Translations under genes and position numbers: made by a program
Assembly (NCBI RefSeq): GCF_017876435.1
Contig: NZ_JAGIOA010000001.1
Coordinates: 3,664,651 to 3,728,650 of the forward strand
Source of the DNA: Microbacterium phyllosphaerae
GTDB taxonomy: Bacteria; Actinomycetota; Actinomycetes; Actinomycetales; Microbacteriaceae
Direction of reading: 5' to 3'
Length of the DNA stretch: 64,000 nucleotides
The notes under the pieces: model-generated
Told to the model about the DNA's origin: nothing
The model's database searches: none
What the model saw: only the letters and a program-made list of their open reading frames with translations
In this document: positions 5,003-35,457 of the stretch, piece by piece
How positions within the stretch are numbered: the stretch's first letter is position 1
How the letters are laid out: each line of letters starts with the position of its first letter

Positions 5003-6330
5003 TCTCCGAGGTCTCGGGTGCGGATCGGGTAGAGCCAGAAGCAGAGCCAGGCGAGGGCGGCGAACACGAGCGGCACCACCGCGACCATCACGCGGATGCC
5101 GCCGTCGACCGCCTCGGGTTGGGCGTCGCCGAGCGATGCGTCGAAGCCGGATGCCGTGAGCACCACCGCCGCGACGATCGCCTGCAGCACGACCGACCCG
5201 CGCACCACGAAGCCGTTCACGCCGAAGTAGGCGCCCTCCCGGCGATGCCCTGTGCGCACCGCATCCTCGTCGATGATCTGGGCGAGCACGACCTCGAGCA
5301 GCTGCAGCAGACCGCCGACGCCCACTCCCACCGCGACCCCGACGAGGGCCGCCGCCATCACGGTCGACGGCAGCAGGTATCCGAGCATCGCGATGCCGAA
5401 GACCGCGACGCTCCACAGGAGAGCCGTGCGCGGTGAGGTGCGCCGCACGACCGCGCTCCAGAGGACGATCGACGGGATCGCCGTGACGAAGATGGCACCG
5501 AGCAGCAGACTGCCCTCGCCCTCGGCCGCACCGAGCGAGTACCGCACGTAGAACGGGATCGCCGCGAGCACCACCGCGATCGCCGTCTGGATGAACAGCG
5601 ACCCGAGCACGTAGGGGACGAACGCGCGATTCGCGAACGTGTAGGTCAGCTGATCGCGCCAGCGCATCGCCTCGGACGCCGCCTCCGGCACTCGACGCTC
5701 GATCATGCCGCCGACGAACGACCACACGAGCAGCACCAGGCAGACGGTCGCGAGCACGACCGCCATGCCCGGCCAGCCGATCCGCCCGTACAGCGCGGGG
5801 GCGCCCGCCGTGCCGAGCACGATGCCGAGGATCGCGAAGATCTGCCGGGGCACATTGCCCCTGGCGCGCTCGTCGGTGGTGCGGAAGATCTCGGGGAACA
5901 GCGCCGAGATGTTGAGCACGACGACCACGAACGCGATGTCGTACACCGCGACGACGATCAGGAACCAGACGATCAACCCGGCGGCCGGCAGCTCCGGCGG
6001 CATCCACACCAGCGCGAACGCGACCACGAGCGGCACGATCCCGAGACCGATCCAGGGGATGCGGCGGCCCCAGGGCGTGCGGATGCGGTCGGACAGCGCG
6101 CCGACGACCGGGTTGAGCACGGCGTTCAGCACCCCGTGCGCGATCATCGCTGCGGCCACCCATGTGGGTTCGACGCCGAGGTGGGTGACGTAGAAGTAGA
6201 CGACGAACGCCGAGAACGTCTGCGTCATGAGCTGCGTCGGGAATCCGGATGCTCCGAACGCGATCGCCTGCGCCCTCGTGGGCGCGGCATTCAACCGTCG
6301 GTCTCGAAGACGCGTCGTCAGCGAGGTCAT
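4987..6330 (-). CDS. GPH-family (MelB-like) sugar:cation symporter
   Basis: This 447-residue membrane protein has about 12 hydrophobic segments and the glycoside-pentoside-hexuronide signature LSDRIRTPWGRRIPWIG after the second pair of helices. The family imports glycosides with H+ or Na+. ATG 6330 overlaps the stop of the upstream deacetylase gene (ATGA), so I prefer it to the start 13 codons further out. Cotranscription with a ROK regulator and a ChbG-type deacetylase points to an oligosaccharide substrate, possibly N-acetylated; this is inference. Confidence 0.85.
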   Translation of the reverse strand: MTSLTTRLRDRRLNAAPTRAQAIAFGASGFPTQLMTQTFSAFVVYFYVTHLGVEPTWVAAAMIAHGVLNAVLNPVVGALSDRIRTPWGRRIPWIGLGIVPLVVAFALVWMPPELPAAGLIVWFLIVVAVYDIAFVVVVLNISALFPEIFRTTDERARGNVPRQIFAILGIVLGTAGAPALYGRIGWPGMAVVLATVCLVLLVWSFVGGMIERRVPEAASEAMRWRDQLTYTFANRAFVPYVLGSLFIQTAIAVVLAAIPFYVRYSLGAAEGEGSLLLGAIFVTAIPSIVLWSAVVRRTSPRTALLWSVAVFGIAMLGYLLPSTVMAAALVGVAVGVGVGGLLQLLEVVLAQIIDEDAVRTGHRREGAYFGVNGFVVRGSVVLQAIVAAVVLTASGFDASLGDAQPEAVDGGIRVMVAVVPLVFAALAWLCFWLYPIRTRDLGDQEAA

Positions 6331-7235
6331 GCGCTCTCTCTCCGCTGCAGGTCGCGCAGGTCGCGCCACCCCAGCCTGATCAGTCCCTCGTCGGCGATCG
6401 CCTGCAGCACCGCCGGATCCGACAGCAGACGCAGCTCGTGCCCCCGCTTCACGGCGCCGTAGTCGACGGCGGCACGCAGCTCGTCGTCGTCGACCATCGG
6501 ATGCAGGTAGATCTCCGTCACTCCCGAAGGCACCGCCCGCAGCAGCGCGATGAACCCGTCTCGTACCTGCTCGTACGACTCGTCGGGTGCGGCGTCGAAG
6601 GGATGGCTCCAGAGGCGGTCGATGATCTCGACGCCGAACGCGTCGGCCCCGGCCGCAGCCTCGGCGAGCTTCGCCTGCAGCGCGGCATCGTCTTCCGTGC
6701 CCTCCATGCTCCGAGGCAGCCGGAACGGCAGCCCGTGGCGCGCGGCCAGCTCGAACACGGGCCGCAGGAAGTCGCGTCCGGTGAGCAGCCCGTAGACCGA
6801 CCCCATGTGGTTGTCGAGGTGGGTCACATCGACACCGGCATCCAGTGCCGCCTGCAACTGGGCTGCGATCTCGGCCGCGACGTCATCGGTCGACGCGTGC
6901 TGCTCGATCTCGAGCGCACCGGCCGGGAAGTATCCGGCCGCATCGACCAGGGTCGTGCCTGTTCCGGTGAGCGGGCGCCACCGGTAGTCGGTCCACTCGC
7001 TCGTGAGCACGAGGTGCACTCCCACGTCGAGATCCGGTCGCGACGCGGCGAACGCGAGCGCCTCGGGGGCCCAGGCGCACGGCACCATCACCGTCGTGGA
7101 ATCGATGTGCCCTGCATCCAGCAGCTGGACGATCGCGGTGTTCGCCGCGTGGCACATACCGAAGTCGTCGGCGTTGATGATCACGGCTCGGGCGCCGGGG
7201 GCGAGCCCGAGTCGATCTGCGAGATCCGAGCTCAT
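6327..7235 (-). CDS. ChbG/YdjC-family carbohydrate deacetylase
   Basis: The 302-residue protein has the metal-site motifs of the YdjC family: INADDFGMCHAAN near residue 20, a central DVGVHLVLTSEW, and THLDNHMGSVYG further on. Family members remove one acetyl group from N-acetylated oligosaccharides such as diacetylchitobiose so that they can be processed or act as inducers. It overlaps the ROK gene by 4 bases and the symporter by ATGA, so the three proteins are made together. The exact sugar is not evident; no glycosidase is present in the operon. Confidence 0.85.
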   Translation of the reverse strand: MSSDLADRLGLAPGARAVIINADDFGMCHAANTAIVQLLDAGHIDSTTVMVPCAWAPEALAFAASRPDLDVGVHLVLTSEWTDYRWRPLTGTGTTLVDAAGYFPAGALEIEQHASTDDVAAEIAAQLQAALDAGVDVTHLDNHMGSVYGLLTGRDFLRPVFELAARHGLPFRLPRSMEGTEDDAALQAKLAEAAAGADAFGVEIIDRLWSHPFDAAPDESYEQVRDGFIALLRAVPSGVTEIYLHPMVDDDELRAAVDYGAVKRGHELRLLSDPAVLQAIADEGLIRLGWRDLRDLQRRESA

Positions 7236-8374
7236 CTGCGCTTCCTGTCTGCATCGGGAACGAGACGCGAGAACACGGTCGCGCGAAGAGCGGATGCCGC
7301 CTCACCCACCGCCCCGACCAGCGGCGCCTCCGGTCCGAACGACGAGACCGCGAACGTCAGAGGCAGTCTCGGAGCGAGGTTCTCGGCGTAGTAGTCGGCG
7401 ACGGCGTCGATCATCGCGGGGTGCGCAGCGGATCCGCTGAGGATGAACGCCTCAGGATCCAGCACGAGGGCGATGCTGCCGGCGATCAGAGTCAGTCGGC
7501 GCCCCATCTCGGCAGCCATCGCGATCGCGGCAGGGTCGCCGGCGTGCGCGGCATCGAGATGCTGGTCGACCGTCTCGTCGGGGTTGCGCCCGTTGGCGAG
7601 GGCGAGATCGCGCACGACCTCGTCGCCGAGCACGGGGGCTCCGATCGGCACCGGCGTCTGCGGCAGGTACATGACCTCGCCGGCGACTCCCGAGAAGCCG
7701 CGGTGCAGCACACCGTCGATCACGATGCCCGCGCCGAGCCCGTCGTCGAGCAGCAACAGGGCGAAGCTGGCGAGGTCGGCGCCGGTGCCCGCTGTCAGTT
7801 CTGCGAGCGCCGCCAGATTGACGTCGTTCTCGACGCGTACGGGGCAGCCGAGACGCTCCGAGAGCGCGTTCTTGAACGCACCCCCGTCTGGCCCCTGATC
7901 GTCGCGGATGCCGCCGTCGGCCGAGACGATGCCGGGGATGCCGACGACCGCGAGCTCCAGCGGCCCGGCGACCACTCGTCTGCAGGCGGTGACGAGCTCG
8001 ACGATGTGCTCCACCCGATCGCCCCGCACGGGGAACGGCGCGTGATGCTCGGCTCGGACGGCACCGGTCGGGTCGACGAGCACGACGTGGGCGGCATGGC
8101 CGTCGACGTGCACGGCGGCGGCGAGGCCGAGCTGCGGATGCAGCGCCACACGGCCCGCGGCGGGTCCTCGGGTCTCGCGGTCGACGCCTGCCGGCGCGAC
8201 CGCCGCGGCGCTCTCGAGCATCCGCAGCACCTGCGTCACCGCGGTGCGCGAGAGCCCGGTCTCGGTCGCGAGCGCGTTTCGCGTGAGTGGCCCTCGGCGA
8301 GCGAGCGTCTCGAGGATCGCACGTCCGTTGAGGGTGCGTAAGAGGGTCTGCGGGCCCGCCAGTGGTCTTGCCAT
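7232..8374 (-). CDS. ROK-family transcriptional regulator
   Basis: The 380-residue protein has an N-terminal winged helix (about 14-65, RNALATETGLSRTAVTQVL) joined to a ROK sugar-kinase-like domain, the layout of NagC/XylR-type repressors. It heads the operon ROK-deacetylase-symporter. A GGGGGG purine run precedes ATG 8374. It probably represses its own operon through the palindrome at 8409-8421 and responds to the imported sugar. The effector cannot be read from the sequence. Confidence 0.88.
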   Translation of the reverse strand: MARPLAGPQTLLRTLNGRAILETLARRGPLTRNALATETGLSRTAVTQVLRMLESAAAVAPAGVDRETRGPAAGRVALHPQLGLAAAVHVDGHAAHVVLVDPTGAVRAEHHAPFPVRGDRVEHIVELVTACRRVVAGPLELAVVGIPGIVSADGGIRDDQGPDGGAFKNALSERLGCPVRVENDVNLAALAELTAGTGADLASFALLLLDDGLGAGIVIDGVLHRGFSGVAGEVMYLPQTPVPIGAPVLGDEVVRDLALANGRNPDETVDQHLDAAHAGDPAAIAMAAEMGRRLTLIAGSIALVLDPEAFILSGSAAHPAMIDAVADYYAENLAPRLPLTFAVSSFGPEAPLVGAVGEAASALRATVFSRLVPDADRKRR

Positions 8375-8408
8375 GATGATCCCCCCGGATTCGACGTGCG
8401 CTCAGCAT

Positions 8409-8421
8409 GACACATCGTGTC
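8409..8421. promoter_or_regulatory. Palindrome upstream of the ROK operon (candidate operator)
   Basis: GACAC-ATC-GTGTC is a perfect 5-bp inverted repeat with a 3-base centre, 35 bp upstream of the ROK start, in the gap shared with the divergent acetyltransferase gene. Position and form fit a ROK-family operator, but no second copy supports it. Confidence 0.4.
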
Positions 8422-8477
8422 TCACTGGTCGAGGGGTCAGTCCGTCAGGTTCGACGGCGCTTCCAGAACACCGCTTC

Positions 8478-8489
8478 TAGAGTGGTCGG
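8478..8489 (+). promoter_or_regulatory. -10 element of a probable leaderless promoter
   Basis: TAGAGT (8478-8483) stands exactly 6 bases before ATG 8490, with no Shine-Dalgarno sequence between. This is the standard arrangement of leaderless genes in actinobacteria. The -35 is not recognisable. Confidence 0.5.
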
Positions 8490-9017
8490 ATGACGACACT
8501 GCTGATCCGTGACGGAGTGATCGACGACGCCGATCAGATCGCCGGCGTGCACGTCCGCTCCTGGCAGGCGGCGTACCGCGGGCTCATCGACCAGGAGGTC
8601 CTCGACGGGCTCTCGATCCCCGACCGCGCCGAGGGGTGGCGACGCAACCTCTCGGACCCGCTGCCGACCATCATCGGCATTCTTGTCGCCGAACGCGACG
8701 GCGAGATCGTCGGGTGGACATCCTTCGGCTCAGGGCGCGAGGAGGAGGGAGCGGGCGACGGCGAGGTCTACGGGATCTACGCCGACCCCGCCGAGTGGTC
8801 GACGGGCGTCGGACGCGCGTTGCTCGACGCCGCCGAGCAACGGATCCTGGACGCCGGCCACACGCGTGCGTACCTGTGGGTGCTCGACGGCAATGAACGC
8901 GCCGACGCGTTCTACGCTCGCCAGGGGTGGGTGGCCGACGGCGCGAGCAAGGTCGAGGAGCGGCCGGGAATGAGCCTGCGGGAACACCGCAGGGTCAAGC
9001 ATCTGGCCGGCTCCTGA
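8490..9017 (+). CDS. GNAT-family N-acetyltransferase
   Basis: The 175-residue single-domain protein shows the GNAT core: VRSWQAAYRGLI near the N-terminus (the common AAYRG motif), GEIVGWTSFG, YGIYADPAEWSTGVGRALLDAA (acetyl-CoA-binding motif A with its G-V-G-R-A turn), and YLWVLDGNERADAFYARQGW. It transfers an acetyl group from acetyl-CoA to an unknown amine. It stands alone between divergent and convergent genes, so context gives no hint of substrate. Confidence 0.88.
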   Translation: MTTLLIRDGVIDDADQIAGVHVRSWQAAYRGLIDQEVLDGLSIPDRAEGWRRNLSDPLPTIIGILVAERDGEIVGWTSFGSGREEEGAGDGEVYGIYADPAEWSTGVGRALLDAAEQRILDAGHTRAYLWVLDGNERADAFYARQGWVADGASKVEERPGMSLREHRRVKHLAGS

Positions 9018-9030
9018 CCCGGCCGCGCTC

Positions 9031-10464
9031 TCAGTCGAGAGCCGACATCACGTGCTTGATGCGCGTGTAGTCGTCGAAGCCGTACTGCGAGAGGTCCTTG
9101 CCGTAGCCGGAGTGCTTGAACCCGCCGTGGGGCATGTCCGACACGAACGGGATGTGCGTGTTGATCCACACGCATCCGAAGTCGAGGTCGCGTGAGAAGC
9201 GCATCGCGCGGGCGTGGTCGGTCGTCCAGACCGACGATGCCAGCGCGTACGGCACGTCGTTCGCCATCTCGAGTGCCTGCGCGTCGGTGTCGAACGACTG
9301 CACGGTGAGCACCGGGCCGAAGATCTCGCCCTGCACGGCCTCGTCGTCCTGGTGCAGGCCCGACACGATGGTCGCCTCGAAGAAGTAGCCCGTGTCTCCC
9401 TGTCGCCGACCGCCGGTCTCGATCGTGGCGTGCGCCGGCAGCCGGTCAACGAACCCCTGCACCTGGGCGAGCTGAGCCGCACTGCTCAAGGGGCCGTAGA
9501 GCACGCCCTCCTCGTGCGGTGCGCCGGTGCGCGCATCCGTCTTCGCCTTCTCGACCAGGGCCGCGACGAACTCGTCGTGCACAGACGAGTGCACGAGGAC
9601 GCGCGTGGCGGCGGTGCAGTCCTGCCCCGCGTTGAAGAAGGCACCGGTGATGATTCCGGATGCCGCCTTGTCGAGGTTCGCGTCGGGGAAGACGATCGCC
9701 GGCGCCTTGCCGCCGAGTTCGAGGTGCACGCGCTTGACGTCGTTCGCCGCCGAGCGGGCGACGGCCATGCCCGCACGGACGGACCCGGTGATCGCGACCA
9801 TCTGCGGAGTCGGATGCTCGACGAGAGCGACACCGGTGTCACGGTCGCCGAGCACGACATTGAGCGTGCCTGTGGGCGTGTGGACCGCGACGATCTCGGC
9901 GAGCAGCAGCGTCGTGAGCGGCGTCGATTCAGCCGGCTTCAGCACCACGGTGTTGCCCGCGGCGAGCGCGGGAGCGATCTTCCACACGGCCATGTTCAGC
10001 GGATAGTTCCACGGCGTGACCTGGCCGATGACGCCGATCGGCTCTCGGCGCACGAATGACGTGTGTCCGGCGAGGTACTCCCCCGCGGCGCGGCCTTCGA
10101 GGCTGCGCGCCGCCCCGGCGAAGAACCGCAGCTGGTCGATCGACTGCAGGATCTCGTCGTCGACGAGGGTGGCGCGGGGCTTTCCGGTGTCCTTCGACTC
10201 CAGGTCGGCGAACTCCTCGGCCCGGGCCTGCATCTCATCGGCGATGCGGAACAGCGCCAGCTGCCGATCGGCCGGTGTCGTGTCGCGCCAGATCGGGAAC
10301 GCGGCGGATGCGGCGGCATAGGCCGCATCGACGTCGGAGGCGTCCGAGACGGGCAGCTCGCCGTAGGTCTCCTCGGTCACGGGGTCGATCAGCGGCATCC
10401 GCCCCTGTCCGCTCACGGGAACGTACTGCCCGCCGATGAAGTTCTTGAGGAGTTCTGTGGCCAT
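9031..10464 (-). CDS. Aldehyde dehydrogenase, gamma-aminobutyraldehyde type
   Basis: The 477-residue NAD-dependent aldehyde dehydrogenase has the start LLKNFIGGQYVPVSG, VTPWNYPLNMAVWK, LELGGKAPAIVF and the catalytic cysteine in FFNAGQDCTAATR, all typical of the PatD/YdcW group that oxidises 4-aminobutyraldehyde to GABA. ATG 10464 is chosen because TAGCAT lies 7 bases before it, with TTCTGT 17 bases further up. It is divergent from an Lrp-type regulator followed by an amine oxidoreductase, so a role in polyamine breakdown is likely. Substrate assignment is by resemblance and context. Confidence 0.85.
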   Translation of the reverse strand: MATELLKNFIGGQYVPVSGQGRMPLIDPVTEETYGELPVSDASDVDAAYAAASAAFPIWRDTTPADRQLALFRIADEMQARAEEFADLESKDTGKPRATLVDDEILQSIDQLRFFAGAARSLEGRAAGEYLAGHTSFVRREPIGVIGQVTPWNYPLNMAVWKIAPALAAGNTVVLKPAESTPLTTLLLAEIVAVHTPTGTLNVVLGDRDTGVALVEHPTPQMVAITGSVRAGMAVARSAANDVKRVHLELGGKAPAIVFPDANLDKAASGIITGAFFNAGQDCTAATRVLVHSSVHDEFVAALVEKAKTDARTGAPHEEGVLYGPLSSAAQLAQVQGFVDRLPAHATIETGGRRQGDTGYFFEATIVSGLHQDDEAVQGEIFGPVLTVQSFDTDAQALEMANDVPYALASSVWTTDHARAMRFSRDLDFGCVWINTHIPFVSDMPHGGFKHSGYGKDLSQYGFDDYTRIKHVMSALD

Positions 10465-24363: not shown

Positions 24364-24792
24364 ATGGACCAGAACACAGGACGCACCCCGCACGCCGAAG
24401 AGCCCGCCGAGGGTTCGACCGAGCAGAACCCGGAGCACAACACCGCCCCGGACGGACAGACATCGACCGAGCGCGATGAACTGCACGGAAACGCTCAGGG
24501 CGCAGCCCAGGGTGGCGCCATCCAGGGCGACAGCTCGCACGGCGATGCGGCCCGAGGCGCGATCCAGGGCGAGGCCGAAGACGGCAACGCTCAGGGCGCA
24601 GCCCAGGGCGGCGCGATCCAGGGCGACAGCTCGCACGGCGAATCGCCGCGCGGCGCCATCCAGGGTGACGCGAGCCCCGACCGCGATGCGGCACTCGGCG
24701 GCGACAAGAACACCGAGGATCAGCTGACGGCCGACAACGAGGTCGAGGAAGACGCGCTGCGCTCACTCGACCCGAACGACGCTCCCGCCTGA
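24364..24792 (+). CDS. Low-complexity protein with two 33-residue repeats
   Basis: The 142-residue protein is hydrophilic and lacks cysteine and membrane segments. Residues about 42-74 and 75-107 are tandem repeats built on GNAQGAAQGGAIQGDSSHG and RGAIQG; the DNA repeats are almost identical over about 58 bases, 99 bases apart. Both ends are acidic. Such Gly/Gln/Ala/Asp-rich sequence is expected to be disordered, like stress hydrophilins, but no family is recognised. A 13-bp terminator hairpin follows directly, supporting a real transcript. Confidence 0.7.
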   Translation: MDQNTGRTPHAEEPAEGSTEQNPEHNTAPDGQTSTERDELHGNAQGAAQGGAIQGDSSHGDAARGAIQGEAEDGNAQGAAQGGAIQGDSSHGESPRGAIQGDASPDRDAALGGDKNTEDQLTADNEVEEDALRSLDPNDAPA

Positions 24793-24881: not shown

Positions 24882-26183
24882 TCACACGTTCGCCGATTCG
24901 CGCGCCGGGGCGGTTCGCGCCGCAACGAATGCATCCAGCAGTCGAGCGGTGTCCTCGAGTTGCTCGTTCCAGATCGCTCGCACGATGTCGATACGGTGTT
25001 CTGCATCCTGCAACCCGCCGAGATAGTCGGCGACGCCCGCGAAGCCAGCGGGATCCGCTTCATGCAGAGTGATCAGTCGAATCGCGAGCTTCGCCTGGAC
25101 GCCGTAGACGGGGATCTGCGGGCCCCGGGGTGCCGCCATCCCGATGTAGTAGAGCTTCTCGAGCCCCTTCGCCACGACGCCGCCCGCGTAACGCAGGGGC
25201 GCACCGTACCGTCGCTCGACGAGGTCATCGGCGAGGAACGGAAGGCTCGAGTGGAATCCGGTGGCCCACAGGATGGTGTCGTACTCGCCCGACGTGCCGT
25301 CCGAGAAGAACACTGTCTTCCCCGCGATTCGATCGATCCCCGGCCTGATCTTCACACGTCCGTGCTGGAGCCAATACAGAAGCAGCGTGTTGACGACCGT
25401 GCTTCCCTCGGCGAGGGTCCGATGCCTGGGTACGGGCAGCCCCGGATAGTCCTTGGCCTCGCCGATGACGATGCGCGCGAGCAGGCGTGAGATGAGGTCC
25501 TGCTCGTCGGGGGCGAACTCGGCCATCCACTCGACCTCCTGGCGCGGAACACCGAAGTAGGACTTCGGCTGGAAGTACGTTCCCTCACGGATGACCATGT
25601 CGACGTCGTACCGATGCTGCGCGGCATCCACGGCCAGATCGCAGCCCGAGTTCCCCGCTCCGACGACCAGCACACGGCGGCCTTCGATGTCATCGGTGTT
25701 TCGATACGAGCCGGAGTGCACCTGCGCGCCGGTGAAGTCAGAGGCGATGGCCGGGACCTTCTGATCCCAGAGGTGACCGTTGGCGACGAGCACACCGTCG
25801 TAGTCGATGCTCTCGCCGGTGTCGAGGGTGACGGTCCATCCCGCCGACCCGACCGGACCGTCAGCGGCGACAGGGACGACGGAGATCACCGCGGTGTTGA
25901 AGCGGATGATCTCGTAGTGGCCGTGATGGCGGGCATACGACTCGAGGTACTCGCGCACCTGGTCGCGACGGGGGAAGTGCGGATAGTCGGCCGGCATGGG
26001 GAAGTCCTCGAAGTGAGTCATGTCCCGAGACGTGATGAGGTGCAGGGCGTCGTAGTCGGTGTGCCAGTGGCCTCCGACTCGGTCGGTCTTCTCGAAGCAG
26101 TCGACGTCGTAGCCGGCCTGCCGCAGTTGCTGAAGTGCGGAGATTCCGGCAGCACCGGCTCCGATGACGCAGTAGCGAGTCAT
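24882..26183 (-). CDS. Class B flavin-containing monooxygenase
   Basis: The 433-residue enzyme has an FAD site VIGAGAAGISAL (6-17), the FMO identifying sequence FTGAQVHSGSY (150-160, F-x-G-x3-H-x3-Y), an NADPH site VVGAGNSGCD (173-182) and LWATGFHSSLPF near residue 300. Class B FMOs oxygenate soft nucleophiles such as amine nitrogen or thioether sulfur. GAAGGAAG precedes ATG 26183. It is the last gene of the SDR-SDR-ABC-FMO operon, 50 bases after the second permease, so it probably acts on the imported compound. Confidence 0.88.
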   Translation of the reverse strand: MTRYCVIGAGAAGISALQQLRQAGYDVDCFEKTDRVGGHWHTDYDALHLITSRDMTHFEDFPMPADYPHFPRRDQVREYLESYARHHGHYEIIRFNTAVISVVPVAADGPVGSAGWTVTLDTGESIDYDGVLVANGHLWDQKVPAIASDFTGAQVHSGSYRNTDDIEGRRVLVVGAGNSGCDLAVDAAQHRYDVDMVIREGTYFQPKSYFGVPRQEVEWMAEFAPDEQDLISRLLARIVIGEAKDYPGLPVPRHRTLAEGSTVVNTLLLYWLQHGRVKIRPGIDRIAGKTVFFSDGTSGEYDTILWATGFHSSLPFLADDLVERRYGAPLRYAGGVVAKGLEKLYYIGMAAPRGPQIPVYGVQAKLAIRLITLHEADPAGFAGVADYLGGLQDAEHRIDIVRAIWNEQLEDTARLLDAFVAARTAPARESANV

Positions 26184-26233
26184 AACTGTTCTTCCTTCGT
26201 GGGAGTGGGTGGCGTGAGGGTGGCGAGGACGTG

Positions 26234-26878
26234 TCATACGGCTCCGCGATCGAGGCGATGCTCGACGAAGACCGACAGCCATGTCGCGGGCACCGCGATC
26301 GCCGCGTAGATCAGCCCCGTGATGAGGTACACCGTGAGGTATTCGAACGTGATGTTGCTCATCTGATACGCGCGGCTCATGAGCTCGTTGACCGAGATGG
26401 AGTAGGCGAGCGAGGTCGCCTGGAACGACATGATGGCGAGTCCCATCAGCGCCGGTATCGCAGAGCGCATGCCCTGAGGGAGCACGATCCGCACGAACGA
26501 TGTGAGACGCGGCAGACCCAGCGCGGACGACGCCTCGACTTGGCCGCGGGGGACGGATTGGATGCCCGCGCGGAAGACCTCCGACGAGTATGCCGCGGCG
26601 GTGAAGGTGAGCCCGAGCACGGCCGCGACGAAGTTCTCGAACAGCACGCCCAGTGCGGGCAGCCCGAAGTAGACGATGTAGAGCACGACCAGGGCAGGGA
26701 TGCCGCGGCCGATCTCGACCACGACGAGAGCCGGCCAACGCAACCACGGTCGCACCGAGGTGACCCCGAGGGCGAAGACGAGTCCGAGCGCGTAACCGAA
26801 TACGACCGAGAGCGCGGTCAGCTGCAGGCTGACGACCAGCCCTTCACCGAGGGTGGGGAGGTAGTCGACGATGTCCAT
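26234..26878 (-). CDS. Polar amino acid ABC transporter permease (2)
   Basis: The 214-residue permease has five to six membrane segments and the EAA loop EASSALGLPRLTSFVRIVLPQ that docks on the ATPase. N-terminus VDYLPTLGEGLVVSLQLTALS is typical of HisM/GlnP-type subunits. ATG 26878 shares one base with the stop of the first permease (TGATG). Together with the next genes upstream it forms a complete PAAT-type importer. Confidence 0.92.
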   Translation of the reverse strand: MDIVDYLPTLGEGLVVSLQLTALSVVFGYALGLVFALGVTSVRPWLRWPALVVVEIGRGIPALVVLYIVYFGLPALGVLFENFVAAVLGLTFTAAAYSSEVFRAGIQSVPRGQVEASSALGLPRLTSFVRIVLPQGMRSAIPALMGLAIMSFQATSLAYSISVNELMSRAYQMSNITFEYLTVYLITGLIYAAIAVPATWLSVFVEHRLDRGAV

Positions 26879-27519
26879 CACTGTGCCTTCCGTAGCCGGC
26901 TGTCGATTCGCCGCGCGAGGATCGCGACGGGAACGCTGACGATGAGGTAGACGGCCGCCGCGACGAAGAACGGCAGAATGCCGGCGGAGGCGGGGTTCTG
27001 CCGGGCGAACATGTTCGCCGCGAACACCATGTCTGCAACCCCGATCGTCGAGGCGATCGAGGAGTCCTTGAGCAGGGACAGCAGGTAGGTCGTGATCGAG
27101 GGCAGTGATGTCCGCAGCGCCTGCGGCGCGAGGATCCGCCCGAAGGTCGTTCGCGAGTCCAGCCCGAGAGCGGCGGCCGCCTCGGACTGCCCCCGCGGCA
27201 ATGTCGCGAAGCCGCCGCGATAGATCTCGGCGAGGTATGCGCTCGCGATGATTCCGAGGCCGAGCACGGCGGCCGACAGGGAATCGAAACGAACCGCGCC
27301 GATCTGCACCCCGAAGTAGATGAGGAAGAGCCACACGATGGGTGGGATGCCTCGTATGAGATCGACGATGAACCGGATGAGCAGTCTCAGCGGCCTCCAT
27401 CGAGCCCGCAGGCCCAGCATGATCGGGAACCCGAGAACCGCGCCGATCGCGAACGCGAGGACCGTGACGAGCAGGGTCATCGGCAGCCCGAGGAGCACAG
27501 CGAGGATGACGTCGCTCAT
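26878..27519 (-). CDS. Polar amino acid ABC transporter permease (1)
   Basis: The 213-residue permease resembles its partner, with FIVDLIRGIPPIVWLFLIYFG and the EAA loop EAAAALGLDSRTTFGRILAPQ. ATG 27519 is one base after the ATPase stop. Two different permeases indicate a heterodimeric channel, as in the glutamine and histidine importers. Confidence 0.92.
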   Translation of the reverse strand: MSDVILAVLLGLPMTLLVTVLAFAIGAVLGFPIMLGLRARWRPLRLLIRFIVDLIRGIPPIVWLFLIYFGVQIGAVRFDSLSAAVLGLGIIASAYLAEIYRGGFATLPRGQSEAAAALGLDSRTTFGRILAPQALRTSLPSITTYLLSLLKDSSIASTIGVADMVFAANMFARQNPASAGILPFFVAAAVYLIVSVPVAILARRIDSRLRKAQ

Positions 27520-27520
27520 G

Positions 27521-28306
27521 TCAGCGCTCCAGGACGGCGCTGAGGAACCGCCGGGTGCGCTCCTCCCGAGGGGAGGCCATGATCTCGGCGGGATTGCCCT
27601 GCTCGATGATGTGCCCCTCCGCCATCACCACGAGATGGTCGCCGACATCGCGGGCGAACTGCATCTCGTGCGTCACGACGATCATGGTCATGCCCGCGTC
27701 GGCGAGTTCACGCATGACTGCCAGAACCTCGATGCCCACCTCGGGATCGAGCGCGCTGGTCGGCTCGTCGAAGAGCATGACGCGGGGGTTCAACGCGAGC
27801 GCGCGGACGATGGCGATGCGCTGCTGCTGACCTCCCGAGCAGCGCCCTGGATGCTGCAGCGCCTTCTCCTTGAGGCCGACGCGCTCGAGCAGGGTCATCG
27901 CTCGCTCTTCGGCTTCCGCCCGACTGCGACCCAGGATCTTCTCCTGCGGGAAGGCGATGTTGCGCAGCACCGTGTAGTGAGGAAAGAGATTGAACGACTG
28001 GAACACCATCCCGACCTGGCGGCGCAGGGCGAGAAGGTCACGGTCTTTGATGGTCGTTCCGGCGTCTATGGTCTGCGTACCGACTGTGACGCTGCCCGCG
28101 TCCGGGGTCTCGAGCAGATTGACGCACCGCAGCAGGGTGCTCTTGCCTGATCCGGAAGGACCGATGAGAGCGGTGACGCTTCCGGGCTTCACGGACATCG
28201 AGATGTCGTCGAGCACGAGGTTGTCGCCGAAGCTCTTGGACAGGTGTGAGATCTCGACACCGGCGTGAGCCAGTTCGTTGCTCTGGGTGATGAGTCCGGG
28301 GTTCAT
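27521..28306 (-). CDS. Polar amino acid ABC transporter ATP-binding protein
   Basis: The 261-residue ATPase has Walker [13 protein letters not shown]-loop [11 protein letters not shown], signature [16 protein letters not shown], Walker [15 protein letters not shown] and the H-loop VVTHEM. This is the GlnQ/HisP type. An excellent ribosome site, AAGGAGGA (28312-28319), precedes ATG 28306. It powers import of the ligand bound by the lipoprotein encoded just upstream. Confidence 0.95.
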
Positions 28307-28357
28307 GTGAGTCCTCCTTGGGTTGGACGCCGACCGTGGCCGGCGTCCAACCAGGTG

Positions 28358-29230
28358 TCAGCGGATCGAGGTGGCGGCGACGTCAGTCGGAACGAGAAGA
28401 CTCGCGGGCAGGTCATAGTCGGCGAGGATCTTCTCGAGCGTGCCGTCTTCGCGGAACCCGTCGATGTGCTCGCTGATCGCGTCCGCGAGGTCGGTGTTCT
28501 CCTTGGCGATCGGGAACGCGATGATCGGCTTCGACGTCGTGATGGCGATACGGTCGTCGACCTCAGCGGGCTCCACGATGAAGTCGGTGTCCGCGTAGGC
28601 GACAGTGGCGACGGCATACCCGTCGAGGGCTGCTTGGATGCGACCGCTCACGAGATCCTGCTTCGTCTCGACGGTCCCGGGGTAGGTCTTGAGCTCGCTG
28701 CCGAGGACCGCGCTCATATCCGCCTCCCACGAGAAGCCCGCGACACTGCCGACGGCGCCGATCTCCTCGAGGGCTTCGACAGTGGTGACGCCCTCTTTCG
28801 AGATGATCCCCATGGAGTCGTAGAAGGTGGGGGCGGTGAATCCGACCTGTTCGGCGCGCGCCTCGGTCACATACCAACCGCCAGTGATGAGATCGGTCTT
28901 CTTCTGCTCGCTGATCATCGGGATGCCGTTGGCATATGTGATCGGCACGAACGCGAGATCGAGGCATTCGGCGGCGGCGATCTTCTTGATCACGTCGATC
29001 TCGAGGCCGGCGGCATCGGTGCCCTTCGTCTGGGTGTAGGGAAGGTTCTCGGGAACGCCCACGGTCAGGGTCCCCTCGGTGTAGGTCGTCAGCCCTTCGT
29101 GTGCGGGCGTGCAGTCGTCGGCGACGCTCGAGCCGGTCGAGGTGGAGGCGCAGCCGGCCAGAGCAGCGACGGCGACGCCGATACCGGCCAGCATGGCGAG
29201 CGGACGGTGGAGTGTGGATCGGGTGTTCAT
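28358..29230 (-). CDS. PAAT-type substrate-binding lipoprotein
   Basis: The 290-residue protein has a signal peptide with lipobox LAGC (Cys27), so it is anchored on the outer face of the membrane. The mature part is a family-3 solute-binding protein: LTVGVPENLPYTQT, AAGLEIDVIKKIAA, DLITGGWYVTEARA, DLVSGRIQAALDGYAVA. The ligand is likely a small polar, amino-acid-like compound, but binding residues do not identify it. The strong presence of dehydrogenases and an FMO in the operon argues for a catabolic substrate, not an ordinary amino acid. Confidence 0.9.
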   Translation of the reverse strand: MNTRSTLHRPLAMLAGIGVAVAALAGCASTSTGSSVADDCTPAHEGLTTYTEGTLTVGVPENLPYTQTKGTDAAGLEIDVIKKIAAAECLDLAFVPITYANGIPMISEQKKTDLITGGWYVTEARAEQVGFTAPTFYDSMGIISKEGVTTVEALEEIGAVGSVAGFSWEADMSAVLGSELKTYPGTVETKQDLVSGRIQAALDGYAVATVAYADTDFIVEPAEVDDRIAITTSKPIIAFPIAKENTDLADAISEHIDGFREDGTLEKILADYDLPASLLVPTDVAATSIR

Positions 29231-29285
29231 GATGCTTCTCTCTGTCTGTACGGGATGGTGCGCTGAGCGGACGCGGGGTGAGCGG

Positions 29286-30014
29286 TCACACAGCGGTCAG
29301 GCCGCCGTCGATGGTGAAGACGGAGCCAGTGACGAATGATGATGCGGGTGAGATCAGGTAGTCGACGAGGGGGGAGATCTCGTCAGGTCGGGCGCGCCTC
29401 CCCAGCGGCGCAGAGGTGCTGCTGCCGCCCGATGGCTCGTGGTCGTTCATCGTGGTCGCGACACCACCGGGGCAGATGACGTTCACACGGACCAGGGGCG
29501 CCAGCTCGACGGCCGCGACTCTCGAGAGCGCCACCACGGCCGCTTTCGACGCGGCATATGCTCCGTATCCCGCCGATCCGACGAGAGCGGCGGTGGAGGA
29601 GATGTTGAGGATCGCGCCGCCGCCCGCGTCACTGATGAGGGGACCGATGGTGCGGATGCCGAGGAATGTCCCGTGCACGTTGATCCGCTCGTGGAGTTTC
29701 CACTCGTCGAGTGCGGTGTCTCGGATCTCTGCGTGACGGAGGATCCCGGCGTTGTTGACCAGCGCTCGGACGCGGACGCGATCCGCTGCCAGGCTCTCGC
29801 CCAGATGTGCCCAGGCCGCCTCGTCGGACACATCGAGGTGCCGATACTCCGCATCGGCTCCGGAAGCGCGCAGTACGGCCGCCATCTGCTCGCCCGGCTC
29901 ATCGAGAACATCCGTCAGGATCACGCGTGTGCCGTGGCGCGCGAGATACGACGCGTGCGCCGCCCCCTGTCCACGCGCGGCTCCCGTGATGATGACGGTG
30001 TTCTTGGCGTTCAC
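29286..30014 (-). CDS. Short-chain dehydrogenase/reductase (SDR 1)
   Basis: The 242-residue SDR has the cofactor motif [10 protein letters not shown] (about 11-20), [13 protein letters not shown] with the catalytic serine, and YAASK (Tyr/Lys). GTG 30014 overlaps the stop of the previous SDR gene (GTGA). It probably oxidises an alcohol in the same pathway; Asp in VILTDV after strand 2 favours NAD over NADP. Confidence 0.9.
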
Positions 30015-30727
30015 CGGATGACGTCCCCACCCGAGAGCACGATCGTCTCACCGGTCATGAAGGCGACGTGGGCTTTGGAGGAGAGAAGCCACACCCATTC
30101 GGCGATCTCGTCGGGTTGCGCCACACGTCCGAGTGGGATGCCGGCAGCTGCCGCTTCCATCCGTCCGGTCGCCGCATTGCCCGGCGTCGCCACCCAGCCC
30201 GGCGCGATGCCGTTGACGCGGATGCCTTCGGACGCGAGTTCGAGAGCGAGCGACTTGGTGAGCATCACCACGGCGGCCTTCGACGCACCGTAGAACAGCT
30301 GCCCGGGTGAGACCACGAATGCATCGACCGAGGCGAAGTTGACCACTGCGGCGCCGGCCGCCATACGGGGACGTACAGCGGCGATGACGTTGACGACACC
30401 GAAGACGTTCACGTCGAAGATGCGGCGATAGATCGCCTCGTCGTACGAGTCGATGGTCGTCGGCGGGTACACGCCGGCGATGTTGGCGACGGCATCGATC
30501 AGGTCGCCGGGAGACAGCACCTCGTCGATCGCTCGCACGATGTCCTCGCGCGACCGTACATCTGCCACGACCGGCAGGAAGCGACCGTCATGCGGTGCAT
30601 CGACTGTTCCGGCGACGATGTCGATACCCACGACCGTCCATCCGTTCCGAAGGAAGAGGGACGCCGTGGCCAGCCCCATTCCTGATGCGGCGCCGGTGAC
30701 GACGACGGTTCCTGTTGTGCCCTGCAT
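30011..30727 (-). CDS. Short-chain dehydrogenase/reductase (SDR 2)
   Basis: First gene of the operon divergent from lysR. The 238-residue SDR has [18 protein letters not shown] (a variant of NNAG), FASVDAFV with the serine and YGASK. GIDIV after strand 2 suggests NAD. ATG 30727 has GGAGGT upstream. Two different SDRs in one operon could act on successive alcohols, or on two enantiomers of the same alcohol. Confidence 0.9.
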
Positions 30728-30840
30728 ATCTCGCTGACCTCCGTGAGTGGTGTTAGGAATCAGTGCACCAGGAGCGGTGGAACAGGGCAATGCTTGGTAC
30801 GGGATGGTAGACATAGGCTCAGCCTTGAGAAAGGATCACC
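30728..30840. promoter_or_regulatory. Divergent promoter region, lysR / SDR-ABC-FMO operon
   Basis: On + , TAGGCT (30814-30819) is a likely -10 for lysR, with AAAGGA (30830-30835) as ribosome site 5 bases before ATG 30841. For the operon on - , I see no confident -10. TGGTACGGGATGGTAG (from about 30795) contains two close TGGTA copies, a possible LysR contact site, but no clean T-N11-A palindrome stands out. Confidence 0.4.
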
Positions 30841-31767
30841 ATGGCCCTCCCCACCATCCGCCAGCTCGAGTACTTCGTGTCTGCCGCGCGAGTGGGAACC
30901 TTCGCGGGCGCCGCCGCGGAGAATCACATCGCGCAGCCCAGCCTGTCCGAGCAGATCAGCGTGCTCGAGAGAACTCTCGAGGTGGCGCTCTTCACGCGCA
31001 CGTCACGTCGATTGCTGCTCACCGACGCGGGCAAACAGCTTCTCCCCCGAGCTGAGCGAGTGCTCGCGGACATGCGCGAGTTCGCGGAGTGGAGCCGTCG
31101 CGTGCGGTCCATAGAAGAAGGCACCGTGTCGTTCGGCACCTTCAACAGCGCACACCTCTACCTGCTGACGGAACTCATCCGCGAGTTCCACCGTCAGTAT
31201 CCGGGCGTGCGGATCGAGGTCGTCGGGCTCAACTCGTCCGAGGTCGCGGATCGCGTGCGCAACGGCGAGCTCGAAGCGGGGCTCGTACAGCTCCCGATCG
31301 ATGATCGAGAACTCGAAGTGACGCCATCGGTCTTCCGTGATCAGGTCGTGTACGTCTCGAGGAACCCGGATCACACGAGAAATCCTGTGGACATCGCATC
31401 GCTGGGTGACCGACCACTCATTCTGTCGGAGGCTCGCTGGTCGCACGACGATCCTCTGCGGGTGTCTCTGACCGAGATCGCCCAGCGCGACGGCGTGGTG
31501 ATCCGTCCGATCGTGGAAGTCGAGTTCCACACCCATTCGCTCGAGCTCGCCGCCGAAGGCGTCGGTGACACCCTCGTGTCGTACCACGTGGGCAAAAACC
31601 TGATGGAGTCGCGAGGGCTGACCTGGGCACCGCTCGACCCGCCGATCGTGGAGCACTACGCCTTCGTCACACGGCGGAACGGAGCGATCTCCCCCGCGAC
31701 GGCGCAGTTCATGCGCCTGGCGCACCGCATCCTCCAGACGATCGCGACCGACGCGCCGTTCTCCTAG
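30841..31767 (+). CDS. LysR-family transcriptional regulator
   Basis: The 308-residue protein has the LysR helix-turn-helix (residues 1-60: IRQLEYFVSAARVGTFAGAA, PSLSEQISVLER) and a two-lobed effector domain. Divergent orientation to the SDR-SDR-ABC-FMO operon is the classical LysR layout, so it probably activates that operon when the substrate or an intermediate is present, and represses itself. A 17-bp terminator follows. Confidence 0.93.
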   Translation: MALPTIRQLEYFVSAARVGTFAGAAAENHIAQPSLSEQISVLERTLEVALFTRTSRRLLLTDAGKQLLPRAERVLADMREFAEWSRRVRSIEEGTVSFGTFNSAHLYLLTELIREFHRQYPGVRIEVVGLNSSEVADRVRNGELEAGLVQLPIDDRELEVTPSVFRDQVVYVSRNPDHTRNPVDIASLGDRPLILSEARWSHDDPLRVSLTEIAQRDGVVIRPIVEVEFHTHSLELAAEGVGDTLVSYHVGKNLMESRGLTWAPLDPPIVEHYAFVTRRNGAISPATAQFMRLAHRILQTIATDAPFS

Positions 31768-31842: not shown

Positions 31843-34995
<3,153 letters not shown>

Positions 34996-34999
<4 letters not shown>

Positions 35000-35457
35000 T
35001 GAGTCAGTCCCTGCCTGCTCGTCAACTGCGGTACCCACCGTCGCTCCAATCCGTCGCTCACGCGATCAACATCGTCTTGTGTGCCGAAGATCTCGAGCCG
35101 ATACAAGTGAGGCACGTTGCACTTGCGGCTGATGATGTCACCGGCGAGACAGAAGGACTCGCCGAAGTTGGTGTTGCCCGCGGAGATCACTCCGCGGATG
35201 TGTCGCCGGTTGCGCTCGTCGTTGAGGAACCGGATCACCTGCTTGGGCACCGCACCTCGTTCGACGCCGCGCCCCTCACCCCCGCCGTAGGTGGGAGTGA
35301 TCAGCACGAAGGGCTCGTCGATGACGAGATCTTCCTGCTGACGGAGAAGGGGAATGCGTCGGGCCGGAAGCCCGAGCTTCTCCACGAAGCGCGCGGTGTT
35401 ACCCGAGGTGCTCGAGAAGTAGACCAGGAGCGGCGCAGCGGTCGCGACGGCGCTCAT
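34996..35457 (-). CDS. nrdI: Class Ib RNR flavodoxin activator
   Basis: NrdI is an FMN protein that supplies the oxidant for assembling the Mn2-tyrosyl cofactor of NrdF. The 153-residue protein shows the FMN phosphate loop [23 protein letters not shown] and [18 protein letters not shown], all characteristic. ATG 35457 is 6 bases after the nrdH stop. Confidence 0.95.

Follow-up and report, generated by a model that had tools for sequence, protein, structure and literature searches.

In the classical pathway, trans-4-hydroxyproline is broken down by an epimerase, a D-hydroxyproline dehydrogenase and a deaminase of the DHDPS family. None of these enzymes is encoded in the operon described here, which lies in a 64,000-nucleotide stretch of the Microbacterium phyllosphaerae genome (contig NZ_JAGIOA010000001.1, positions 3,664,651 to 3,728,650; the window hereafter means this whole stretch). 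By open reading frame (ORF) calls and start sites the operon comprises seven minus-strand genes (24882-30727), with a divergent gene for a LysR-type regulator; the seven encode a class B flavin monooxygenase (FMO), two short-chain dehydrogenases (SDR1 and SDR2) and a PAAT-type ABC importer with its solute-binding lipoprotein (SBP). Classical hydroxyproline clusters (our locus L086 and plasmid p232 of Arthrobacter sp. Rue61a) are amino-acid catabolic clusters with a related PAAT importer (SBP 37-40% and ATPase 67-71% identical). We tentatively propose that the operon serves the catabolism of a hydroxylated amino acid whose alcohol stands next to the amine-bearing carbon (a 1,2-amino alcohol), a reading we judge possible, if a little short of probable. 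We found no operon of this kind described in the open-licence PMC literature, nor the route as such in the open-licence literature.

Single steps of the proposed route do have described parallels. The ephedrine and pseudoephedrine dehydrogenases of Arthrobacter sp. TS-15 are SDRs that convert a beta-amino alcohol to an alpha-aminoketone (extracts of PMC7773637 and PMC11842280); we liken them to the SDR1 reaction by description, not by sequence. The same holds for mammalian BDH2, a 4-oxo-L-proline reductase and NAD-dependent SDR that acts reversibly (PMC8914325, in extract), which resembles SDR1 in reaction rather than sequence and is not part of a catabolic operon. Regarding the monooxygenase, DiatB (PDB 8z12) has Asn57 and Arg360 where the window FMO has Ile50 and Ala351, with Arg353 instead; neither a paper on DiatB nor its reaction was found in the open-licence literature. 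YUCCA and the clade III bacterial FMOs share with the window FMO a Leu at the first site of the active-site dyad, and differ from it in operon context and in Arg353. Clade III members are listed with Baeyer-Villiger oxidation in the part of PMC10682829 that we cite.

Results

Conservation of the module

Among 149 Microbacterium genomes, FMO orthologues (at least 72% identity) are present in nine, the window's own included, and the M. foliorum FMO is 96% identical to that of the window. Exactly the same nine genomes carry SDR1 at E 1e-45 or better and, again, an SBP of at least 60% identity. A tenth (G068) has a 43% SBP relative beside a 46% FMO, and G007 carries a second, 40% SBP. Outside the genus the distribution is patchy: the module was found in 7 of 398 genomes of a family sample and 6 of 394 of a class sample (both at E 1e-140 and counting the window's own genome), and in 3 of 351 genomes of another family of the same class at E 1e-120. 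Eleven plasmid records matched the FMO, three of which (H1, H3, H4) were examined. SDR1 had two plasmid matches at E 1e-35, both in Thioclava and both beside an FMO relative, and in a Thioclava plasmid a 50% SDR1 homologue sits between a Liv importer and a 38% FMO; a plasmid search with SDR2 at E 1e-45 gave no match. Since the gene set recurs in other genomes, and since FMO, SDR1 and SBP share the same nine of the 149, it is a real, conserved module and not a chance association.

The gene neighbourhoods were compared in 47 tabulated FMO loci, drawn from a first scan of 32 and further loci cut from genomes. Dropped before counting were L033-L062 (short loci, duplicates of orthologues or distant paralogues), L063, L065 and L066 (on the same contigs as L003, L006 and L015), L081-L084, and L079 and L080 (FMO 36% and 32%, other contexts); L025, L028 and L067, cut by contig ends, were retained. 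A gene was scored as near when it lay within 7.5 kb of the FMO and reached 50% (SDR1), 40% (SDR2), 55% for the ATPase with 40% for a permease, 60% (glutamate dehydrogenase), or 60% for HxlA with 50% for HxlB. The counts are not independent, given close relatives such as L001/L002, L018-L020, L023/L024/L032/L075 and L076/L077.

SDR1 lies near the FMO in 42 of the 47 loci, the five without a call being the three at contig ends, L068 (where SDR1 is 39% identical) and L014. A PAAT importer with its SBP accompanies the FMO in 26 loci, SDR2 (at least 40%) in 27, a LysR copy of at least 40% identity in 31 and a GntR gene in 11. Other transporters stand near the FMO elsewhere. APC occurs in L030, L073 and L085, and a Liv importer in L072 and L078. 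Of the five loci with MFS, L018-L020 have PAAT as well, and in L017 and L021 MFS stands by itself. L022 has an NhaC-type antiporter, which scores 367 bits where the cut-off is 370. As transporter types swap between loci, the core of the module is SDR1 plus FMO, with an exchangeable importer. PAAT, Liv and APC belong to amino-acid transporter types, which is not clearly so for MFS and NhaC. A sequence-only reading of the window had described a LysR-controlled import-and-oxidise operon, and had named loss of the FMO and SDR genes from beside the ABC genes as grounds for doubt; the unit is supported and is kept in other Microbacteriaceae, and the doubt did not materialise, 26 of the 47 loci retaining the PAAT importer.

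Some loci are peculiar in themselves. L067 (contig C48 of G105) carries the FMO and importer twice, in inverted orientation and with identical match scores, on a single contig of 21.5 kb. This is likely a palindrome introduced by assembly, and SDR1 of G105 sits on another contig. In L071 (G452) the FMO copy has one in-frame TAG, that is, a decaying module or a sequencing error. A gene of the malate/lactate-dehydrogenase family (Ldh_2; 8159-9172) is inserted between racemase and FMO in L070. The sister operon L068 (G068:C12:192000-210000) pairs a 39% SDR with a 46% FMO that has Ala at 353 and a 43% SBP, and also holds a class I/II aminotransferase and a PAAT importer; perhaps it performs the same chemistry on another substrate.

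Active site of the monooxygenase

The FMO matches the class B FMO-like family PF00743 at 150.8 bits against a Pfam cut-off of 22, and its F-x-G-x3-H-x3-Y signature, already pointed out by the sequence-only reading, reads F150-T-G-A-Q-V-H156-S-G-S-Y160-R. Its dyad is Leu49-Ile50, with Ile50 aligned at N57 of DiatB and Asn62 of AncFMO5. FMOs that oxygenate N or S carry an Asn above the flavin here (Asn61/62, Asn78, DiatB N57), and Ile replaces it in 43 of 43 readable orthologues. In human FMO3, the N61S change abolishes trimethylamine N-oxygenation (PMC5676948, in extract). Leu49 agrees with the Leu or Ile that occupies the first dyad site in enzymes performing Baeyer-Villiger oxidation, according to the cited section of PMC10682829. 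Arg353 is specific to SDR1-paired FMOs, being present in 44 of 44 and in the Thioclava FMO, and in none of 22 other relatives readable at that position. From these residues, N- or S-oxygenation is not favoured.

Trimethylamine monooxygenase (NF058570, 91.2 against 675 bits) and ArsO were considered as identities and set aside, both falling below NCBIfam cut-offs. The genome has a second FMO (G000:C1:3051493-3052548), 39% identical to that of the operon; similar relatives (about 35-41%) abound in the genus sample, and Ile50 and Ser353 are present in the majority of those that were read.

Dehydrogenases and importer

Both dehydrogenases have the residues of classical NAD-type SDRs, invariant in 22 of 22 aligned sequences for SDR1 (S133, Y146, K150, N107, D36) and in 17 for SDR2 (S140, Y153, K157, N112, D35). 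SDR1 also has Asp135, two residues after the catalytic Ser, which is invariant in the same 22 and occurs in none of five aligned PDB SDRs; it may contact a positively charged amine of the substrate. Searches of solved structures with SDR1 and SDR2 returned general SDRs only. One of the alphaproteobacterial SBP loci examined, that of Paracoccus seriniphilus, holds two SDRs, and one of these shares 37% identity with SDR1 as well as its Ser-Val-Asp-Ala-Phe stretch.

The importer is a PAAT ABC system by composition: an SBP_bac_3 protein, two BPD permeases and an ATPase in one operon. Arg125 of the SBP is invariant in 23 of 23 aligned sequences and falls at what we take to be the carboxylate-binding Arg of amino-acid binders, following the residue roles in GlnBP and LAO. 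Gly204 stands where these proteins would usually have an amine-binding Asp, and Asp203 immediately precedes it. The best SBP family model in NCBIfam is of the Lys/Arg/Orn type, far below its cut-off, and a fold search gave general amino-acid binders without a ligand call. The EhuABCD ectoine importer and cystine importers are among the best NCBIfam models for the permeases and ATPase; neither identity was accepted, all scores being below the equivalog cut-offs. Among the matches listed, FMO, SBP, permeases and ATPase reach no NCBIfam equivalog cut-off, so the family models leave the substrate unnamed, as the sequence-only reading had done. That reading also had the operon importing some small polar compound. 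An import unit is indeed present; the breadth of ligand is not supported, as the importer types and Arg125 suggest a ligand that is probably amino-acid-like.

Among importers located away from an FMO, the closest found are those of G007 (SBP 37-40%, ATPase 71%, permeases 56-58% identical) and Rue61a p232 (SBP 40%). Both are accompanied by proline racemase, DHDPS-family and ornithine-cyclodeaminase-family (OCD) genes, which is the gene set of hydroxyproline catabolism. The window's genome gave no hit to the hydroxyproline epimerase family PF05544 at E 1e-20; the family is found in 32 of the 149 genus genomes, namely 3 of 9 with the module and 29 of 140 others, which indicates neither link nor exclusion. 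SBP relatives occurred in 24 plasmid records, of which 15 were listed and seven examined, two of the seven lacking annotation. Four annotated alphaproteobacterial relatives (about 36%) have as neighbours FAD oxidoreductases, aminotransferases, Asp/Glu racemases or an oxoprolinase-family gene, and a sequence scan of the two unannotated records found a relative of the Paracoccus racemase gene in them. In L086 the proline racemase gene (5607-6609) of the hydroxyproline-type cluster is broken across two reading frames in the assembly, the pieces having been searched apart.

Optional neighbours in relatives

A two-cysteine racemase of the Asp/Glu type lies near the FMO in 14 of the 47 loci, both Cys being invariant in 11 of 11 aligned; 42 relatives of it were found among the best 7993 candidates. 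Glutamate dehydrogenase occurs in seven loci and is of two types, the second in L017-L020 and L085. The formaldehyde-fixing pair HxlA and HxlB occurs in three. In L001 and L002, genes for glutamate dehydrogenase, HxlB and HxlA come after the FMO in that order (both Hxl proteins exceed NCBIfam cut-offs in L001), and L030 has the order APC, SDR1, FMO, SDR2, HxlB, HxlA, so that HxlAB look to have arrived separately in the two arrangements. In the window no HxlA above the TIGR03128 cut-off, our mark of a ribulose monophosphate (RuMP) route, stands next to the module; the genome has an HxlA elsewhere (G000:C1:2034958), next to which an HxlB-like ORF was recognised by eye. In L023, L024, L032 and L075, related actinobacterial loci of which two are labelled Nanopelagicales, SDR1 is preceded by a glycerol-kinase type gene.

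Layout of the operon and its surroundings

ORFs, Pfam and NCBIfam agree on the gene content and tight same-strand spacing that the sequence-only reading had described (Table 1). LysR and SDR1 are 113 bases apart. The gap contains a dyad whose AGG-N5-CCT is invariant in 15 of 15 aligned lysR-SDR1 gaps, against a mean column identity of 54%, making it a candidate regulator site; from the position of its gene, LysR would control the operon.

Table 1. Genes and candidate site of the operon, in window coordinates
Feature	Position	Strand	Family evidence	Remarks
LysR-type regulator	30841..31767	+	Pfam HTH_1 and LysR_substrate	Divergent
AGGCT-C-AGCCT dyad	30815..30825	.		Candidate regulator site in lysR-SDR1 gap
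SDR1, NAD-type short-chain dehydrogenase	30011-30727	-	Pfam adh_short	Core partner of FMO
SDR2, second short-chain dehydrogenase	29286-30014	-	Pfam adh_short	GTG start; 4-base overlap with SDR1
SBP, solute-binding lipoprotein of importer	28358-29230	-	Pfam SBP_bac_3	55-base gap to SDR2
PAAT-type ABC ATPase	27521-28306	-	Pfam ABC ATPase, NCBIfam	51-base gap to SBP
ABC permease 1	26878-27519	-	Pfam BPD permease, NCBIfam	1-base gap to ATPase
ABC permease 2	26234-26878	-	Pfam BPD permease, NCBIfam	1-base overlap with permease 1
FMO, class B flavin monooxygenase	24882-26183	-	FMO-like PF00743	Last operon gene; 50-base gap to permease 2

The genes bordering the operon are nrdF/nrdE/nrdI (31843-35457), a MarR gene and an MFS gene. 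An acidic 142-aa ORF with repeated AQGGAIQGDSSHG-type units lies immediately downstream of the FMO on the opposite strand (24364-24792, plus strand), and a Pfam search with it gave no match.

Discussion

Gene set, conservation, co-occurrence and residue patterns are observed; from them we infer a substrate, an order of reactions, products and regulation, and envisage the following route. A hydroxylated amino acid would be taken up by the SBP and ABC importer, and SDR1 with NAD+ would oxidise its alcohol to an alpha-aminoketone (CH(OH)-CH2-N to CO-CH2-N), SDR2 probably handling the other hydroxyl epimer. The FMO, with NADPH and O2, would then make a Baeyer-Villiger insertion between the carbonyl and the amine-bearing carbon. 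The N-CH2-O-C(=O) ester so formed would be expected to fall apart in water into a carboxylic acid, the amine and formaldehyde. Judging from the relatives, formaldehyde would pass to HxlAB or to general detoxification and the amino nitrogen to glutamate metabolism, while the racemase of some relatives would correct the alpha-carbon. Such a model would account jointly for SDR1, SDR2, the FMO and the importer class, as well as for the racemase, HxlAB and glutamate dehydrogenase that some relatives add.

As the two nearest non-FMO importers found sit in hydroxyproline-type clusters, our leading specific guess, though an unlikely one, is that 4-hydroxyproline is converted via 4-oxoproline to aspartate and formaldehyde. 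SDR1 and SDR2 would oxidise the 4-hydroxyproline epimers to 4-oxoproline, a compound on which the mammalian SDR BDH2 acts (PMC8914325, in extract). The FMO would insert oxygen between C4 and C5 to give a 1,3-oxazinan-6-one, and hydrolysis would yield aspartate and formaldehyde, handled in relatives by the Asp/Glu-type racemase and HxlAB. Part of this guess, and equally unlikely with it, is that the FMO represents a Baeyer-Villiger enzyme of an unrecognised class, distinguished by its Leu-Ile dyad and Arg353.

A number of observations weigh against the 1,2-amino alcohol route and its hydroxyproline variant. The fingerprint of Baeyer-Villiger monooxygenases (BVMOs), FxGxxxHxxxW, ends in Trp, where the FMO has Tyr160. 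Ile50 stands in place of the Asp that type I BVMOs have at the second dyad site (PMC10682829, in extract). Ile50 is also found in 21 of 24 more distant FMOs, whose reactions are not known, and is thus not diagnostic. Racemase, glutamate dehydrogenase and Hxl genes are missing from the window operon, and 33, 40 and 44 of the 47 loci, respectively, lack them near the FMO; of the three HxlAB loci, two are close relatives. Genome-wide, a link between module and HxlA was sought and is weak (HxlA in 4 of the 9 Microbacterium genomes with the module and in 23 of the 140 without, p = 0.057). SDR1 is missing from L014 and SDR2 from 20 loci; MFS (L017, L021) and NhaC-type transporters (L022) are atypical for amino-acid import, and for 10 of the 11 GntR-type loci we could identify no importer. 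The glycerol-kinase type gene is unexplained by the model. As to the ligand, the SBP relatives are just 33-40% identical, the four alphaproteobacterial SBP loci examined do not have the hydroxyproline gene set, and module and proline racemase co-occur in 3 of 9 genomes and are thus not mutually exclusive. The stretch before Arg125 reads GGWYVTEAR in the window SBP and GTIDATEKR in the hydroxyproline-type SBP of G007, so the two ligands need not match.

The sequence-only reading had N or S oxygenated before the alcohol was oxidised. Here our results lead elsewhere: SDR1 is a near-constant FMO partner even without SDR2 or the ABC importer, and the FMO lacks the Asn, so that alcohol-to-ketone oxidation followed by a Baeyer-Villiger step fits better, and oxygenation as the first step was lowered accordingly. 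In an adapted form of that reading, an N-methyl or secondary amino acid might be oxygenated by the FMO on its nitrogen, with breakdown of the product freeing formaldehyde and the SDRs oxidising an alcohol elsewhere. The Tyr that ends the FMO-type motif, the formaldehyde genes in three loci, the FAD oxidoreductase genes adjoining related importers and a downstream gene in L014 of the N-methyl-tryptophan/sarcosine oxidase type (below the cut-off of that model) would all suit this idea; we consider it rather improbable, since the invariable loss of the Asn that stabilises the C4a-hydroperoxyflavin, the behaviour of FMO3 N61S and the constancy of SDR1 speak against it. Similarly improbable in our view is a Baeyer-Villiger reaction on some other carbonyl, be it a 1,2-diol or hydroxymethyl ketone, a beta-keto acid, or an alpha-keto acid that arises by transamination and is oxidatively decarboxylated in a YUCCA-like manner. 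It would involve the same carbonyl-type active site, and is consistent with L068, where a more distant FMO (46%) accompanies an aminotransferase and a PAAT importer, and with the glycerol-kinase type gene of four loci; the window operon has no aminotransferase, however, and the amino-acid importers and racemase of the relatives point to an amino acid.

Alternatively, and overlapping with the 1,2-amino alcohol model as a sub-case, the substrate might be an amino alcohol other than hydroxyproline, such as a beta-hydroxy-alpha-amino acid or 5-hydroxylysine, the latter giving glutamate, formaldehyde and ammonia. The seven loci with glutamate dehydrogenase and the Lys/Arg/Orn type of the best SBP model, distant as it is, lend this some appeal. 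Against it, the position of the usual amine-binding Asp is taken by Gly204, Asp203 lying one residue before, and the hydroxyproline-type SBP of G007 likewise has Asp203 and no Asp at 204; 5-hydroxylysine as favourite is lowered because the related importers of L086 and L095 lie in hydroxyproline-type clusters. We regard such a substrate as unlikely, albeit a serious contender. It seems very unlikely that the formaldehyde and glutamate genes lie there by chance and that the module detoxifies or modifies an unrelated compound: the rarity of these genes near the FMO and the patchy distribution of the module would agree with it, but several kinds of importer and two apparently separate arrivals of HxlAB argue that a specific amino-acid-like compound is catabolised.

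If 4-hydroxyproline is the substrate, the route would take the place of the epimerase pathway in genomes like that of the window, where no epimerase was found. It would represent an oxygen-dependent breakdown of an amino acid, releasing formaldehyde from a ring carbon of a residue that is very common in plants and animals, and would assign a task to a subfamily of class B monooxygenases for which we found no role. The SDR1 partner together with Arg353 would, should this reading be true, offer a simple sequence marker for finding such enzymes. Even if the substrate proves to be another amino alcohol, the SDR1-FMO pair forms a well-defined, testable functional unit that extends from Microbacterium to Nanopelagicales assemblies and Thioclava plasmids.

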